Source: Melioribacteraceae bacterium
Lineage (GTDB): Bacteria; Bacteroidota; Ignavibacteria; Ignavibacteriales; Melioribacteraceae
Length of the DNA: 34,991 nt
Assembly: GCA_021740785.1 (NCBI GenBank)
Contig: JAIOZI010000053.1
Coordinates: 1-34,991, forward strand
Direction of reading: 5' to 3'
The notes beneath the pieces are model-generated. The model made no database searches, had not been told where the DNA came from, and was given only the letters and a program-made list of their open reading frames with translations. How positions within the stretch are numbered: position 1 is the first letter of the stretch; each line of letters starts with the position of its first letter. The translations under genes and the position numbers were made by a program. Positions 18,115 to 31,459 of the stretch are shown here, in pieces.

Positions 18115-18392
18115 TAGTGATAATCCTTATAATCTAATAAAAATACGTTTCCATCTTCAAATTTGAACGTCAGTCGCCAATTATCGCTTACATCGATAGA
18201 CCATAGGTTTTCCATTTTTCCTTTCAATTGATGCAGCCGAAAACCCGGTAAATCCATATCTTTAATTACGTTGGCAGTATGCAAGGCTGCCAAACGCATT
18301 CGTAATTTATTTTTATGGGCATGAAGAATGCCTGACGAATTGCCAGTTTTGAAAAATCTTTCTAATCCTTTGTGCTTAATCGATTTTATCAT
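18114..18392 (-). CDS. higB: HigB-family toxin (RelE/ParE superfamily mRNA interferase)
   Basis: The protein is 92 aa from the ATG at 18392. It is a HigB-type RelE-fold ribosome-dependent endoribonuclease. Family features are KGLERFFKTG near the start, RLAALHTA, DMDLPGFRLHQLKG and the C-terminal WSIDVSDNWRLTFKFEDG with the functional Arg. The open frame extends to a TTG at 18431, but that would put the operator repeat (18415-18442) inside the gene, and family members begin MIKSIKHKGL, so I chose 18392. A TATCTTTC box ends only 5 nt upstream of this ATG, so the mRNA may be almost leaderless. Confidence 0.92.
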   Translation of the reverse strand: MIKSIKHKGLERFFKTGNSSGILHAHKNKLRMRLAALHTANVIKDMDLPGFRLHQLKGKMENLWSIDVSDNWRLTFKFEDGNVFLLDYKDYH

Positions 18393-18397
18393 TATTT

Positions 18398-18442
18398 GAA
18401 AGATATATACATATTGCGCAACACGCAACAATTAATTGCGCA
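18398..18442 (-). promoter_or_regulatory. higBA promoter/operator
   Basis: TATCTTTC on the minus strand (18398-18405) matches 7 of 8 positions of the Bacteroidota -7 element TAnnTTTG. Just upstream lies an inverted repeat, TGCGCAA (18415-18421) and TTGCGCA (18436-18442), with 14 nt between the arms. This is the expected place for HigA autorepression. Confidence 0.55.
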
Positions 18443-18499
18443 GGAGATTATAGATACTCGATTCTTGATACTGATATATTATGATTTATTTGGCAACAT

Positions 18500-18710
<211 letters not shown>

Positions 18711-18712
18711 GC

Positions 18713-19054
18713 TTACGGATTTATCAAAGCATTTATCTTATTCAAAGTGTCTGTTAATACTGCCTTAGGTAACTTACAAATGAACTCAGCCTTTCTTGTT
18801 TTCCAATCAAGACTTTTAACCTGGTCTGATAATATCACACCACTGATTTCTAAATTATCTGGAATCTTTACTTCAAAAGGATATTCTTTTACTTGACTTG
18901 ATATTGGACAAAATATTGCCAAGTTAGTTTTTCCATTATATTCTTGAGGTGAGATAACTAAGGCGGGTCTTCTCCCCGATTGTTCGTGTCCGGTTTGAGG
19001 ATTAAAACTTAGCCAAACTATATCTCCTTTATCAGGAACTTTTGTTTTTACCAA
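18713..19054 (-). CDS. mazF: MazF/PemK-family endoribonuclease toxin
   Basis: This 113-aa protein has the MazF/PemK/CcdB-fold signatures GDIVWLSFNPQTGHEQSGRRPALVIS (residues about 10-35, with the RRPALV loop) and FCPISSQ, and the C-terminal LSDQVKSLDW strand that carries the conserved Ser/Asp of the active site. It would cleave mRNA when free of antitoxin. The start is a TTG at 19054, inside the last codons of mazE (7-nt overlap); no ATG in frame gives the conserved N-terminus. The stop lies right next to dispersed repeat copy A. Confidence 0.93.
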   Translation of the reverse strand: MVKTKVPDKGDIVWLSFNPQTGHEQSGRRPALVISPQEYNGKTNLAIFCPISSQVKEYPFEVKIPDNLEISGVILSDQVKSLDWKTRKAEFICKLPKAVLTDTLNKINALINP

Positions 19055-21317: not shown

Positions 21318-21572
21318 TTATCGATGTTTATGCGAACAATAGTTTATATCGATATCCACGTCTTCAGAAAAGCGTTCTATTAACCCGAACCCTTTTGATA
21401 ATGAAGTGCCGCCCTTAAACACCGCTTGTGCCGCGTATTTACTTTTTGACAATCTTTGCAAAACCAACGATATCCAATAATCTTTTTCAATAAATACTTC
21501 GTTAATGTTTAATTGATCCGCAGCAGCCCTTATTGTATCGCTGAATAATTTCTTGTCTGAATGGAGGTTCAT
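21318..21572 (-). pseudogene. Truncated AbiEii/AbiGii nucleotidyltransferase toxin (N-terminal remnant)
   Basis: The 84 residues include FIEKDYWISLVLQRL and VFKGGTSLSKGFGLIERFSEDVDI, the nucleotidyltransferase signature (GGTSL...SEDVD) of AbiEii toxins. Full-length members are about 250-350 aa; here the frame stops soon after the SEDVDIDI strand, and no continuation is visible below 21318. The catalytic domain is therefore incomplete and the toxin should be dead. It overlaps the AbiEi-like gene upstream by 4 nt (ATGA), the normal operon layout. Confidence 0.85.
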
Positions 21573-22294
21573 TTAATATTCCAATTTTCAGTCGTCGATA
21601 GTACCTTGCTTATTCCGGTAAACTTATAATCTGTAATCGGGTTCAATGATTTCTTTAATGGTTCTATCGGTTTAGTATTGCCTAACTCTTCCATCATCGC
21701 GCCAAGTAAAGCTCTTGTTGATGGGGGATATTTCATGGCTAATCTTACCATTGTTTCCTTATCATAAAGGGACAAGTCTTTTATTATTGCCATTAACCTT
21801 TTGCAAGACGCTGCAAGTGAAGTATCCGGTATTTTTTTTATGTACCTAATTGTATCAAGTATTTGAAGCAAAGGAATATTCTCTTTTGTAATGGTATTTT
21901 TCTGTTTGATAAATGAAATTTTATAACGGTCTCTTTTAAATGCCGGGCGTATTTCATTTTTGCCTATTTGAATGGTATTACTTACTTGTGTTGTTAAACC
22001 CAATTGGTTGTAAATACTGTAGCCCGTTAGATAACCGATCGGTTTGCCTTCCTCTTCCAATAAATCTTTTACTACTTGCCTTTGGTTGGGCGGCAGTTCT
22101 CCAAAAACACTCTTTTCCGGTTTGTAATATTTCCCTTTGGAGAGTTTAGATATTTTACCAGATTTCACCATTCGGTTCAATGCCTTTATTACGGCTTCTT
22201 TCTTTTTCACCTCTGTTATTAAATCTGCATAGGTGAACACGTACCCTTTGGGGAACCGATCTATTGTATACGCTATGTATTCTGCTGTTTTCAT
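21569..22294 (-). CDS. AbiEi-like antitoxin (DUF6088 family)
   Basis: This 241-aa protein has an N-terminal winged helix (about residues 1-60, ending SKGKYYKP), then GYLTGYSIYNQLGLTTQVSNTIQIG, typical of type IV AbiEi/DUF6088 transcriptional antitoxins, and a helical C-terminus with KRLMAIIKDLSLYDKETMVRLAMKYPPSTRALLGAM. It looks intact, while its partner toxin is truncated. It should repress its own promoter at the 8-bp palindrome upstream. Confidence 0.85.
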   Translation of the reverse strand: MKTAEYIAYTIDRFPKGYVFTYADLITEVKKKEAVIKALNRMVKSGKISKLSKGKYYKPEKSVFGELPPNQRQVVKDLLEEEGKPIGYLTGYSIYNQLGLTTQVSNTIQIGKNEIRPAFKRDRYKISFIKQKNTITKENIPLLQILDTIRYIKKIPDTSLAASCKRLMAIIKDLSLYDKETMVRLAMKYPPSTRALLGAMMEELGNTKPIEPLKKSLNPITDYKFTGISKVLSTTENWNIK

Positions 22295-24659: not shown

Positions 24660-25090
24660 GGACAAGCAGTATCAAGTATCAAGAAACAAGTATCAAGTAT
24701 CAAAAAACAAGTATCAAGTATCAAGTAGCAAGTATCAAATATCAAGTATCAAGAAACCAGAAACCAGAAACCAGAGACCAGAGACCGGAAACAAGTAGCA
24801 AGTATCAAGAATCAAGAATCAAGTATCAAGTAGCAAGTATCAAGTATCAAGTATCAAGAAACCAGAAACCAGAAACCAGAGACCAGAAACCCAACCTACG
24901 CTAAAACCCAGCTTCGGTTGGCAGGCCCACCTACGCTTAAGAACCAGCTCCCACCTACGCAACAATAGCTTCGGTGGACAAGTCGGTGGACAAGAAAAAT
25001 CAAAAGACAAATAAATGACAATGACAAAAAACAAGTATCAAGTAGCAAGTAGCAAGTATCAAGAAACAAGAAACAAGTAGCAAGAAACAC
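24660..25090. repeat. Degenerate CAAGTAT/CAAGAAA/CCAGAAA heptamer arrays
   Basis: From 24662 the sequence is a run of 7-nt units, mainly CAAGTAT, with CAAGAAA, CAAGTAG and CCAGAAA/CCAGAGA variants, to about 24892. After an insert of hairpins it resumes at 25031-25090. Base composition is extremely purine-skewed on the plus strand. The unit length of 7 keeps all frames open, which explains the spurious ORFs. Confidence 0.88.
24893..24990. repeat. Three tandem copies of a CCTACGC...GCTTCGG hairpin motif
   Basis: The motif (C)CACCTACGC, 7-10 nt, AGCTTCGGTGG recurs in imperfect copies, with complementary ends such as CCAACC/GGTTGG and CCACC/GGTGG. The same motif occurs in reverse near 23440-23490. 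It interrupts the heptamer array. Confidence 0.55.
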
Positions 25091-25943: not shown

Positions 25944-27516
25944 AGTTGAATGCCGAACCTTTTCCCGGTTCACTTTCAACCCATAATACACCCCCGTTTT
26001 TTTCAATAAATTCTTTGCACAACATTAAACCCAAGCCGGTACTTGGTTCCCCTTCGGTACCTTTTCTTCTAACCTTGTCGTCTAAATCAAATAGAATTTT
26101 AAGATCAGATTTTGATATTCCCACCCCTGAATCGCGTACTGTCACATGAATCCTATTACCTTTTATTTCTCTTGCCTGAAATGTTATTGTACCTTTCCTC
26201 ATCGTAAACTTAACAGCATTTGATAAGAGATTTCTAATTACTGAATTTATCATATTTGAATCGGCATATACTGTTTGATTGTGCGGAACTTTATTAACCA
26301 CAACAATTTCTTTTGATCTTATATTCTCCTTGTAAGTATCAATTGCATCTTGAATAATACTGTGCATATTAAAATCAGATTGTTCAAAACTCAGAGTTCC
26401 TCGTTGCAACTGTGCCCATTCCAAAAGATTTTCAATTAATTTATACAAATTAGATATCGATGAATAAAAGCTCTTACTGTATTCTAATAATTCATCCCTT
26501 GAAAAATTTTCTATTTCGCTGATTATCAATTCCGACAGACCTAATAAGCTATTAAAGGGACTTTTGAGATCATGCGCCAAAATTGAAAAGAATTTATCTT
26601 TCTCTGCATTTATCTTTCGCAATTCCTTGTTTTTACTCTTAATTTCATTTTCCGCTTTCTTGGAGCTTTCTACTTCGCTCTTAAGCTGATTTACCAACGA
26701 CTTAACTTGCATTGACATTTCGTATAAGCTTTCTCCGAGCGAACCGATCTCATCGGAGGAGTCTATTCTTTTTATTGCATCAAGATTTCCTTTTCTAAAA
26801 TCATCGCTTTGATATTTTAGTTTGGCGATATGTTTTGTGATTGACCTTGCATAAAGTATTCCAATCGCAATGCTCAATATCAACGCAGAGAAACAAATTA
26901 TAATTAAATTCCTGTATGAGGTGTTTATAATATTGAACAGAGAATTCTTTTCATTTTCAAGTCTTTCGGTTGTAAGAGTAATTGCAAGATCAGCAGCGTG
27001 AAGAAAATTTATTTCCGCCATTTCCATTTCTTCTTTTTTTTCTAAAGCTTCTATACCGCCATCACCATCGCTAACCAATCCGATAAACTCATCAGCGTTG
27101 CTTTGAAGCTGTCTTCCCCGTTTTCTAATTTCATTTAGGAAAATTGAATCTTCAGGGAACGACATCATTACTAGTTTTCTATATTTTGAATAGGCTTCAT
27201 GACATGAATTGCATGATTGACTGATTAATCTGTTTTCTTGCTCAATCTGATGTAACTGAGGGATATCATTTTCCGTGGATTTTATGAATGCAAATTCGGT
27301 TGCCGATGATATTAATCGTAAACATGCGAATTTCATATTATCTAAAACCTGAACGAGAGGCAGCGATTTTGTTGATATATGCACATAACCTTTCTCAATG
27401 TCTTTTGTTACTTTTATTCCGAAATAACCGGCAACGGCTACAAAAAGAGAGATGAAAACAAATCCCAAAATCAATTTGTTGCGGATTTTAGAAAATAAAA
27501 TTTCTTTGATTTTCAT
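25912..27516 (-). CDS. Membrane sensor histidine kinase with periplasmic CXXCH (haem c-type) motif
   Basis: This is a 534-aa protein. TM1 is at about 15-35, a periplasmic four-helix-bundle-like sensor at 36-202, TM2 at about 203-223, HAMP at about 224-278, a coiled coil to 305, and HisKA with phospho-acceptor H315 (SILAHDLKSPFNSLLG). HATPase_c has an N box (NLLSNAVKF, 429-437), G1 (DSGVGIS, 462-468) and G2 (STGLGL, 492-497). In the periplasmic part C102-N-S-C105-H106 is a CXXCH haem c attachment motif, so redox potential, oxygen or NO could be the signal (inference). No response regulator is adjacent, so its partner is elsewhere. A 10-bp palindrome lies 60-90 nt upstream. Confidence 0.92.
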   Translation of the reverse strand: MKIKEILFSKIRNKLILGFVFISLFVAVAGYFGIKVTKDIEKGYVHISTKSLPLVQVLDNMKFACLRLISSATEFAFIKSTENDIPQLHQIEQENRLISQSCNSCHEAYSKYRKLVMMSFPEDSIFLNEIRKRGRQLQSNADEFIGLVSDGDGGIEALEKKEEMEMAEINFLHAADLAITLTTERLENEKNSLFNIINTSYRNLIIICFSALILSIAIGILYARSITKHIAKLKYQSDDFRKGNLDAIKRIDSSDEIGSLGESLYEMSMQVKSLVNQLKSEVESSKKAENEIKSKNKELRKINAEKDKFFSILAHDLKSPFNSLLGLSELIISEIENFSRDELLEYSKSFYSSISNLYKLIENLLEWAQLQRGTLSFEQSDFNMHSIIQDAIDTYKENIRSKEIVVVNKVPHNQTVYADSNMINSVIRNLLSNAVKFTMRKGTITFQAREIKGNRIHVTVRDSGVGISKSDLKILFDLDDKVRRKGTEGEPSTGLGLMLCKEFIEKNGGVLWVESEPGKGSAFNFTLNSQTVTD

Positions 27517-28117
27517 TTATACGTTTACCGATTACTTTTAATTCCCAGTAAGTTAATTTGCTGTATCAATATGATGTTGTAAGAGATAAATGGCTTCTCT
27601 TACAATCTTGACAATCAATATACATTTTGTATAAAATGCTGTATCTATGATTTTTTTTCTGATTCAATAAAGGAGTATTTTTAAGATAGCGTTTACTGAC
27701 TAGCGATATTTTACCAGTAAAATTAGCATTAGAACTAAATAAAGCAAGCGATATTTTTTAGGATAAAAAAAACGAAGAAAGAAGGTGAAAAGTTTCCTTG
27801 AAGATATCTTACACTTATTAAGCAGAATAATAAGCAGTCCACTTATAAAAAAAAGTTGAATAACTTTTTGCAATATGGCTGTGTGAGTTAATATGTTATA
27901 CAGGGAGGCATTCAATTATCGGTATCAATTCAAACAAGTAATCGTGGAGAATATCAAGATACAATACTTAAAACGGCAAATCACAACATGAATTAAAATT
28001 TGCGAAAAAAAAATCATGGCGATAAAATTTTTTTAGTTGAGTAGGTTGGGTGTTTAGTGCCATACAGTATCGAAATTATAAATCGTATCCGATTCTGTAT
28101 CTAAAGTATATTTTAAA
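27517..28117. other. Gene-free region between the histidine kinase and the tRNA-derived repeat array
   Basis: The region is A+T-rich. It contains the palindrome 27577-27605, CATTTT-GTAT-AAAATG near 27623-27638, and a TTG-started 71-codon hydrophobic frame (27700-27915, minus) that I do not accept as a gene. I see no clear terminator for transcription coming out of the tRNA/repeat array at its far end. Confidence 0.5.
27577..27605. promoter_or_regulatory. Perfect 10-bp inverted repeat upstream of the histidine kinase
   Basis: TTGTAAGAGA (27577-27586) and TCTCTTACAA (27596-27605) flank a 9-nt spacer, 61-89 nt before the kinase start. The spacing suits a dimeric regulator. It lacks a T-tract, so a terminator is less likely. 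Confidence 0.45.
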
Positions 28118-29885
28118 TACCCACGGCAGGAATTGAATTTACCTGCCGAAGGCAGGCCTGCGACAATAAGGGATGCAAAGTACCCACGGCAGGAATTGAA
28201 TTTACCTTCCGAAGGCAGGCCTGCGACAGTAAGAGTTGAAAAGTACCCACGGCAGGAATTGAATTTACCTGCCGAAGTCAGGCCTGCGACTGAAAGACAT
28301 GCAAAGTACCCAAGTCAGGAATTGAATTTATCTGCCGAAGGCAGGCCTGCGACAGTAAGAGTTGAAAAGTACCCACGGCAGGAATTGAATTTACCTGCCG
28401 AAGGCAGGCCTGCGGCAGCAAGAATTGAAAAAGTACCCACGGCAGGAATTGAATTTACCTTCCGAGGGCAGGCCTGCGACAATAAGGGATGCAAAGTACC
28501 CACGGCAGGAATTGAATTTACCTTCCGAAGTCAGGCCAGCGGCAGTAAGAATTGCAAAGTACCCACGGCAGGAATTGAATTTACCTGCCGAAGTCAGGCC
28601 AGCGACAGTAAGAGTTGAAAAGTACCCACGGCAGGAATCGAATTTACCTGCCGAAGGCAGGCCTGCGGCAGCAAGAATTGAAAAAGTACCCACGGCAGGA
28701 ATTGAATTTACCTTCCGAAGGCAGGCCTGCGACAGTAAGAGTTGCAAAGTACCCAAGTCAGGAATTGAATTTACCTGCCGAAGGCAGGCCTGCGGCAGCA
28801 AGAATTGAAAAAGTACCCACGGCAGGAATTGAATTTACCTTCCGAGGGCAGGCCTGCGACAGCAAGAGTTGAAAAGTACCCACGGCAGGAATCGAATTTA
28901 CCTGCCGAAGTCAGGCCTGTGCCTGAAAGAGTTAAAAAGTACCCACGACAGGACTTGAATTTACCTTCCGAAGGCAGGCCTGCGACAGTAAGAATTGAAA
29001 AGTACCCACGGCAGGAATTGAATTTACCTGCCGAAGGCAGGCCTGCGACAATAAGGGATGCAAAGTACCCACGGCAGGAATTGAATTTATCTGCCGAAGG
29101 CAGGCCTGCGACAGTAAGAGTTGAAAAGTACCCACGGCAGGAATCGAATTTACCTTCCGAAGGCAGGCCTGTGCCTGAAAGAGTTAAAAAGTACCCACGG
29201 CAGGAATCGAATTTACCTTCCGAAGGCAGGCCTGTGCCTGAAAGAGTTAAAAAGTACCCACGACAGGAATCGAATTTACCTGCCGAAGTCAGGCCTGCGA
29301 CTGAAAGACATGCAAAGTACCCACGGCAGGAATTGAATTTACCTTCCGAAGGCAGGCCAGCGACAGTAAGAGTTGCAAAGTACCCACGGCAGGAATTGAA
29401 TTTACCTTCCGAAGGCAGGCCTGCGGCAGCAAGAATTGAAAAAGTACCCACGGCAGGAATTGAATTTACCTTCCGAAGTCAGGCCAGCGGCAGTAAGAAT
29501 TGCAAAGTACCCACGGCAGGAATCGAATTTATCTGCCGAAGTCAGGCCTGTGGCAGCAAGAGTTGAAAAGTACCCAAGGCAGGAATTGAATTTACCTTCC
29601 GAAGGCAGGCCTGCGACAGTAAGAGTTGAAAAGTACCCACGGCAGGAATCGAATTTACCTGCCGAAGTCAGGCCAGCGGCAGTAAGAATTGCAAAGTACC
29701 CACGGCAGGAATCGAATTTATCTGCCGAAGTCAGGCCTGTGGCAGCAAGAATTGAAAAGTACCCACGGCAGGAATTGAATTTACCTTCCGAAGGCAGGCC
29801 TGCGACAATAAGGGATGCAAAGTACCCACGGCAGGAATTGAATTTACCTTCCGAAGGCAGGCCTGCGACAATAAGGGATGCAAAG
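28118..29885 (-). repeat. Tandem array of 28 units (63-64 bp) derived from the 3' end of the adjacent tRNA-Arg
   Basis: The units begin (plus strand) at TACCCA 28118, 28181, 28244 and so on to 29823, and the array runs without a gap into the tRNA gene at 29886. By hand count 24 units are 63 bp and 4 are 64 bp. On the minus (tRNA) strand each unit is a ~19-22 nt linker, then CAGGCCTGCC-TTC-GGCAGG (or GGAAGG), TAAA, then a match to the last 20 nt of the tRNA (TTCAATT T-loop, CCTGC, CGTGGGTA). There are no unique spacers, so this is not a CRISPR. The closest known parallel is the E. coli tyrT locus, where ~178-bp tandem repeats each carry 19 bp of the tRNA-Tyr 3' end (rtT RNA). A transcript of the tRNA reading on would contain all units. 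Confidence 0.95.
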
Positions 29886-29958
29886 TACCCACGGCAGGAA
29901 TTGAACCTGCGGCCTGCGGTTTAGGAAACCGATGCTCTATCCACTGAGCTACGTGGGC
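29886..29958 (-). tRNA. tRNA-Arg (anticodon CCT)
   Basis: The 73-nt cloverleaf reads on the minus strand as follows. Acceptor GCCCACG / CGTGGGT (last pair G-U), D-arm GCTC...GAGC with GG in the loop, anticodon arm TCGGT-TTCCTAA-ACCGC with CCT at 34-36, a short variable loop, T-arm GCAGG-TTCAATT-CCTGC, and discriminator A. CCA is not encoded. The 27-43 pair is a mismatch; everything else is canonical. The 3' end is the first element of the tandem array, so 3' processing must cut at the junction with repeat 1. Confidence 0.95.
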
Positions 29959-30151
29959 AAATATTAATTATCTACTGGTGCTTTTATTCAAAAATTTCAG
30001 CTCGAAAATATAGCTAACTATGCCAATCTATACAAATTTTCTAATCATAATTAAGAAATAATAAATAATTAATCTTGCACAGTCGGTTTAAATTGAATTT
30101 ACATGTCTTTTTTAATAAATTTCAAGATTAAATTTAACAGAACAATCGTAG

Positions 30152-31459
<1,308 letters not shown>

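Follow-up and report, generated by a model that had tools for sequence, protein, structure and literature searches.

An arginine tRNA gene in the genome of a Melioribacteraceae bacterium (GCA_021740785.1) is followed without a gap by 28 tandem units, 24 of 63 bp and four of 64 bp, each of which is the 3′ part of that tRNA split at the T-loop by a 15-nt palindrome plus TAAA. The same design was found beside other tRNA genes of the family, with or without a small GIY-YIG nuclease gene in the unit, and the rtT repeats of Escherichia coli share the split. The best reading, in which we are moderately confident, is that the array is an amplified satellite, without a gene of its own, of a family of selfish GIY-YIG elements which enter tRNA loops and restore the tRNA with a piece they carry; cleavage, homing and mobilization in trans are inferred, and no trace of the nuclease gene was found in the unit of this array.

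The window, i.e., the whole stretch of DNA analyzed, is 34,991 nucleotides long and is an entire contig (JAIOZI010000053.1) of a draft genome of 4.85 Mb in 115 contigs. The observation made in the earlier note, a tRNA-Arg(CCT) gene running directly into 28 repeats of its own last 20 nt, was confirmed. When split in register, a 73-nt tRNA and exactly 28 units account for 1841 bp, although the order and number of units rest on an assembly of unknown read length. All 28 units end in a copy of the last 20 nt of the tRNA, of which 16 are exact and 12 differ by one or two bases; eight units bear TTCGATT in this tail, seven of them with no other change, and the tRNA itself has that form in several relatives. 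The unit occurs nowhere else in the genome, a search of which gave 28 matches, all on this contig. The features are listed in the table below.

Coordinates of the features in the window and the evidence for each
Position	Strand	Feature	Evidence
29886-29958	-	intact tRNA-Arg(CCT) gene, 73 nt, CCA not encoded	ARAGORN (29885-29958) and Rfam RF00005 (29886-29958), 70.7 bits
28118-29885	-	array of 28 tandem units (24 x 63 bp, 4 x 64 bp), directly after the tRNA	TRF (28.3 copies, period 63, 28118-29905, score 2651); split in register
29867-29885	-	unit 1: 19-nt spacer, the most variable part of the unit	sequence; comparison of the 28 units
29862-29866	-	unit 1: copy of the 5′ strand of the T-stem (GCAGG)	sequence; alignment to the tRNA
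29847-29861	-	unit 1: 15-nt palindrome inserted at the T-loop, the presumed element/tRNA junction	sequence; alignment to the tRNA; genome-wide search for the palindrome
29843-29846	-	unit 1: TAAA following the palindrome	invariant in 28 of 28 units and present at the four other tRNA loci used in the covariance model
29823-29842	-	unit 1: copy of the last 20 nt of the tRNA (T-loop, 3′ T-stem, 3′ acceptor strand, discriminator)	exact in 16 of 28 units
28118-28137	-	last tRNA tail at the far end of the array, presumed original host 3′ end, followed by unrelated flank	sequence; the role is inferred
30167-31459	+	enolase gene, divergent from the tRNA	Pfam; a regular expression for the enolase N-terminus hit upstream of 12 of 30 tRNA-Arg(CCT) loci examined, own included
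24668-25089		heptamer repeats (AGTATCA, AGAAACC, CAAGTAG types) over about 420 bp	TRF
18599-18646		12 perfect copies of the tetranucleotide AATC inside a plus-strand open frame (18372-18896); a possible phase-variable repeat	TRF; open reading frames
21569-22294		DUF6088/AbiEi-like protein in a cluster of small minus-strand ORFs (17.8-25 kb) that may be toxin-antitoxin genes	Pfam; open reading frames

The unit is not a plain copy of the tRNA end, and this anatomy was missed in the earlier note. The unit also carries the 5′ strand of the T-stem (about t46-53) and, between this and the 20-nt tail, the palindrome and TAAA (19 nt together) at GG^TTC of the T-loop; when aligned to the tRNA, the best unit is t46-74, 29 of 29 identical, with a 19-nt insert after t53. 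The six-pair stem of the palindrome is fully intact in only 5 of 28 units, two of its pairs being broken in 14 and 9 units, so that the palindrome is here a mark of origin rather than a maintained RNA structure. The palindrome is not a dispersed repeat in this genome, as only 28 matches with up to one mismatch were found, 22 of them in the array. A search against Rfam returned no family other than the tRNA at gathering score.

The exact unit was found in one of 79 family genomes and in no other. A search of the same 79 genomes with the pattern GGTAAATTCRANYCC alone hit 33 of them, but of 30 loci inspected most had no tRNA nearby and look like chance hits in genes; those beside a tRNA provided the leads. 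Of ten further places chosen from weak DNA hits, only one, in a single-contig relative of 3.3 Mb (G049), gave an array, and another (in family genome G060) gave a tRNA-Arg without one. In G049, tRNA-Met/Ile(CAT) is followed by five 110-bp units with the same kind of hairpin plus TAAA at the same T-loop position, whilst tRNA-Val(GAC) is preceded by about five 136-bp units (locus L040, 1284-2003) made of its 5′ half with the anticodon arm replaced by a palindrome, the mirror image of the array in the window. tRNA-Lys(TTT) of two genomes of one genus has one and two units with this junction, which like the units at tRNA-Met are without a GIY-YIG gene, and tRNA-Leu(CAA) of another family genome (G031) has two, in which the unit contains an open GIY-YIG gene.

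A covariance model built from these junctions hit 16 of 391 genomes of the class, 14 of them in this family and five of the 16 being the sources of the model. Of 11 new loci inspected, five have a same-strand tRNA, one an opposite one and five none, three of the latter with the match near a contig start. One of these loci is tRNA-Arg(CCT) of another genus (G035), with three 54-bp units without a gene at the same site and with the same TAAA; absence of an array of this design from every related genome, which had been set beforehand as a condition that would refute the note, was therefore not what was found. At tRNA-Leu(CAA) one 20-nt palindrome, without TAAA, at the same site marks units with an open gene in one family genome (G064) and units without an open gene in another (G054). 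Gene remnants were sought in gene-less units, however a 17-residue tblastn match in G054 (E 0.003 for one of 55 queries) was not borne out by a profile search (2.8 bits; the best of 100 shuffled regions reached 4.2), and the link between units with and without the gene rests on the shared site, palindrome and family, not on a decayed gene.

In the genome containing the array, 16 matches to PF01541 were found, two of them in long genes of 610 and 566 aa. Of the 14 small ones, 11 lie beside or in tandem with tRNA-Lys(TTT), Ser(GCT), Ser(CGA), Leu(CAG), Ala(GGC) or Ser(TGA), with tandem units of 363, 445 and 315 bp that overlap the tRNA end at three of these; one more, at the end of contig C20, repeats the Ala(GGC) unit, and two are elsewhere. 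None sits at tRNA-Arg(CCT). Gene-less units also occur at tRNA-Thr(GGT), where about five 65-bp units after the tRNA (locus L129, 1880-2420, contig C77) have the T-arm replaced by the palindrome ATCCCGATTTTAATCGGGAT and form a second gene-less array in the same genome, and, cut by a contig end, at tRNA-Pro(TGG). Among 55 small GIY-YIG genes in nine family genomes, which are not all of those detected there, 0 of 15 with a W.R-type tail lie near a tRNA against 31 of 40 others; in this comparison the tails were flagged by hand, tandem copies were counted apart, and at least two of the nine misses also look W-tailed by eye. Two W.R-tail genes of the own genome (loci L085, 1300-2000, and L082) are not at tRNAs; L085 lies among intergenic repeats of the CATTCTGAGCG type. 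Such genes may have another target. An Rfam search of eight loci with GIY-YIG genes not beside a tRNA gave nothing at gathering score. PADLOC gave only weak matches.

A wider scan of the GTDB species genomes with four such proteins gave 286 relatives, of which the best 80 were kept. In 68 of these 80 a tRNA lies within 700 nt, in 61 within 100 nt, and in 68 of 68 it is on the same strand, whilst 12 of 80 had none. The records of loci with a tRNA span Bacteroidota, Ignavibacteria/Chlorobiota, Patescibacteria, WOR-3, Omnitrophota and Marinimicrobia. However, the scan used proteins already known to be tRNA-associated and so the fraction holds for this subfamily only; in addition, related loci are not independent, and two of the 80 appear to be loci already seen in the family. 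The residues Y6, Y17, R27 and E63, to which a catalytic role is ascribed, are invariant in 17 of 17 proteins aligned; the proteins resemble UPF0213 and SLX1 structures and, in 8 of 17, the group I intron endonuclease model.

The tRNA was then aligned with the far side of the GIY-YIG gene at 98 loci (20 of the family and 78 of the 80 from the wide scan, leaving out two that repeat family loci), of which 85 had a same-strand tRNA within 500 nt and enough flank. A partial copy of the tRNA scored 30 or more in 74 of 85, and 66 of these 74 displaced pieces carry an insert of 12 nt or more. Of 81 inserts, 68 have a stem of at least five pairs against 88 of 405 control windows, and 62 fold with z below -2 against 32 of 405. 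Elements upstream of the tRNA have the insert in the D-loop (42 of 49) and those downstream in the T-loop (18 of 32), with 71 of 81 at loops or linkers where half would be expected. Again, related loci are not independent, and the alignment lets long inserts pass cheaply. One palindrome, CCTGCCTGCCGGCAGGCAGG or one letter off, recurs at Arg, Leu and Gln tRNAs across phyla, while the tRNA letters around it follow the local tRNA, so it seems to travel with the element. A second scan, around the tRNAs of two genomes, found such pieces (score 34 or more) at 5 of 40 tRNAs of the own genome and 12 of 43 of G049, against 0 and 0 in a reversed-tRNA control; this cut-off missed own loci where the GIY-YIG gene is present, such as Lys(TTT) at 33, and one further own tRNA, Asp(GTC), is borderline at 34.

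Among 30 family tRNA-Arg(CCT) loci examined (of 51 matches), one has the array, 28 do not, and one (L274) ends 5 nt after the tRNA and could not be judged; the second array, in G035, is in a genome not among the 30. Enolase lies upstream in 11 of the other 29 loci, giving presence and absence at one syntenic site, although no comparison within a genus was possible, and two of the 28 have a 5′-type displaced piece instead. The Val-Leu-Met cluster is kept in three family genomes (G054, G051 and G046), where no tandem array of period over 40 was called.

This pattern is what remains if an element made of a tRNA piece, a small SLX1/UPF0213-like GIY-YIG gene, a second tRNA piece and a palindrome, in the orientation of the tRNA, enters a loop of a tRNA gene. 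In this view one carried piece would complete the host tRNA, which stays intact, and the displaced host half would be left on the far side of the gene with the palindrome at the junction, mostly in the D-loop when the element lies upstream and the T-loop when downstream. As the tRNA, and so the presumed target, is restored, cutting and recombination could repeat and give tandem arrays, and units that lost the gene would stay amplifiable in trans; the gene-less unit of the window would have reached 28 copies in this way. The analysis demonstrates the anatomy, the association with tRNAs, the strand rule, the junction palindromes, the existence of units with and without the gene at the same tRNA and site, and loci without an array, whereas cleavage by the nuclease (of tRNA genes or palindromes), repair by homing, loss of the gene, its supply in trans and the role of the palindrome are inferred. 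The unit of the window has the split displaced piece, the shared strand and the intact tRNA, but it holds no GIY-YIG gene or trace of one (best tblastn match E 0.07; profile score -3.2 bits), and is hence called a satellite and not a full element. Decay from a gene-bearing unit is not proven anywhere, no mobility event was seen within a species, and the model does not explain what would spare the restored tRNA from being cut again. Furthermore, the array shows no polarity (tail mismatches against distance: rho -0.18, p 0.37) and neighboring units are no more alike than random pairs; stepwise growth at the tRNA end is therefore not supported, and later shuffling, or assembly error in the order, must be allowed for.

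The earlier note's interpretation was only partly supported. It was right that the array is contiguous with the tRNA and downstream in its direction of transcription, and its E. coli tyrT/rtT precedent turned out to be closer than was supposed. Its suggestion of a serial target for elements that use the tRNA 3′ end points the right way, but the element found is a GIY-YIG nuclease cassette and not an integrase island. The proposed sponge for RNase Z, RNase P or the CCA-adding enzyme, or source of tRNA-like fragments, is not supported: the T-loop is broken by the insert in every unit and the palindrome is imperfect in 23 of 28, and so a conserved RNA mimic is unlikely.

Of the ALTERNATIVES considered, plain tandem duplication survives best, although it is unlikely. 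Here a replication or recombination accident would have duplicated the tRNA 3′ end, which slippage or unequal crossing-over then expanded, the nuclease genes beside other tRNAs being unrelated. The lack of a gene or gene trace in the unit agrees with this, and copy number and mosaic order fit unequal exchange, which probably helped to expand the array in any model. Duplication explains growth but not the shared junction, i.e., the palindrome plus TAAA at the same T-loop position at six tRNA loci of four isoacceptors in six genomes (two of them of one genus), the same junction with a GIY-YIG gene in the unit, or the mostly palindromic inserts in displaced tRNA pieces next to GIY-YIG genes. A functional non-coding RNA, in which read-through from the tRNA gives a long repeat RNA or small fragments that bind tRNA-processing or modifying enzymes or act like rtT RNA, is less likely still. 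The array lies in the sense direction, no terminator-like site was found in 27500-30170, which leaves read-through possible, the unit folds better than shuffles (z -4.3 and -2.5 in two registers), and an RNA (RttR) is annotated for the E. coli repeat. However, the hairpin decays as described above, the T-arm is split in every unit, selection on the hairpin as RNA was not supported, the junction of the G049 Met unit does not fold better than shuffles (z -0.2), the exact unit is confined to one of the 79 family genomes, and several related arrays consist of 5′ tRNA halves upstream of the tRNA, which cannot mimic a 3′ end. Serial scars of tyrosine-recombinase islands are very unlikely; tRNA 3′ ends are usual attachment sites and each unit repeats the last 20 nt, but no integrase domain was found among the ten window proteins scanned (the smaller ORFs not included), there is no gene in the unit, the repeated tRNA part is interrupted in 28 of 28 units, unlike a plain attachment duplication, mirror-type arrays repeat 5′ halves upstream, and the gene in related units is a GIY-YIG nuclease. 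An assembly artefact, whether a collapsed or chimeric repeat, is the least likely. In its favor, the genome is a draft in which several related units end at contig ends, so assembly trouble at such loci is real, and the order of units shows no autocorrelation; against it, only four pairs of units are identical and the single-contig relative carries the same kind of arrays. Copy number and order may be off, but existence hardly.

The closest known system is the rtT (RttR) repeat of E. coli tyrT/tyrV. In the K-12 record three 178-bp units follow tyrV, and the best-aligned one, the first, holds t54-85 of tRNA-Tyr, 32 of 32 identical, split after t67 in the T-loop by a 68-nt palindrome-rich insert. 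This is the same split as in the window, without the gene, as no GIY-YIG gene is annotated there; the longer unit, the annotated small RNA and small ORF (tpr), the lack of TAAA after the insert and the different phylum set it apart, and the resemblance is compatible with shared descent or with shared mechanism only. A change in rtT copy number between two Salmonella Paratyphi A strains is in print (PMC2658671). Free-standing SegB of T-even phages is likewise a small GIY-YIG nuclease encoded beside tRNA genes, and in phage T6 it drives tandem amplification of the tRNA segment by recombination, with microhomology between the tRNA 5′ end and the segB 3′ end (PMC13096335), showing that such a nuclease can do this; there, however, whole tRNA genes are amplified with segB in a phage genome, with no carried tRNA halves or junction palindromes mentioned in the text consulted. 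A mobile GIY-YIG ORF in the mitochondrial atp6 of Allomyces reportedly duplicates the 3′ part of its host gene and so brings a replacement for the gene end it displaces, but this is a protein gene in a mitochondrion, in single copy, and palindromes are not known there. REP/RAYT systems also link short palindromes to a small nuclease-type gene, although of another enzyme fold, and the palindrome here is not a dispersed high-copy family.

GIY-YIG nucleases beside tRNAs are known in phages and repeats after tyrT are known in E. coli, but in a partial search confined to open-licence papers, which took in neither subscription journals, preprints nor the original tyrT papers, nothing found (including PMC13096335, PMC1564403, PMC2658671 and, on palindromic repeats, PMC3733652) joins the two or describes GIY-YIG cassettes nested in tRNA genes of bacterial chromosomes. 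What differs from the free-standing homing-type element already known is the nesting in the tRNA, with carried tRNA pieces and junction palindromes, and there is a fair chance that this deserves a class of its own. A bolder reading is possible, though somewhat less likely than not: that these cassettes are a widespread, undescribed class of bacterial mobile element that lives inside tRNA genes without breaking them and spawns gene-less satellite arrays, that the E. coli tyrT/rtT repeats are a fossil or satellite of the same class, and that the palindrome would be the cleavage or protection signal read by the SLX1-like nuclease.

The findings also warn that such arrays coincide with contig ends in drafts, as contig ends fall inside or beside the tRNA-linked units on five contigs of the own genome (C17, C20, C56, C64 and C107), so draft assemblies of such genomes seem to break there. 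If the reading proposed here is right, a group of tiny nuclease genes that draft annotations would list as stray GIY-YIG proteins are parasites of tRNA genes with a recognizable anatomy in several bacterial phyla, and arrays of tRNA pieces, the E. coli tyrT repeats included, get a common origin.
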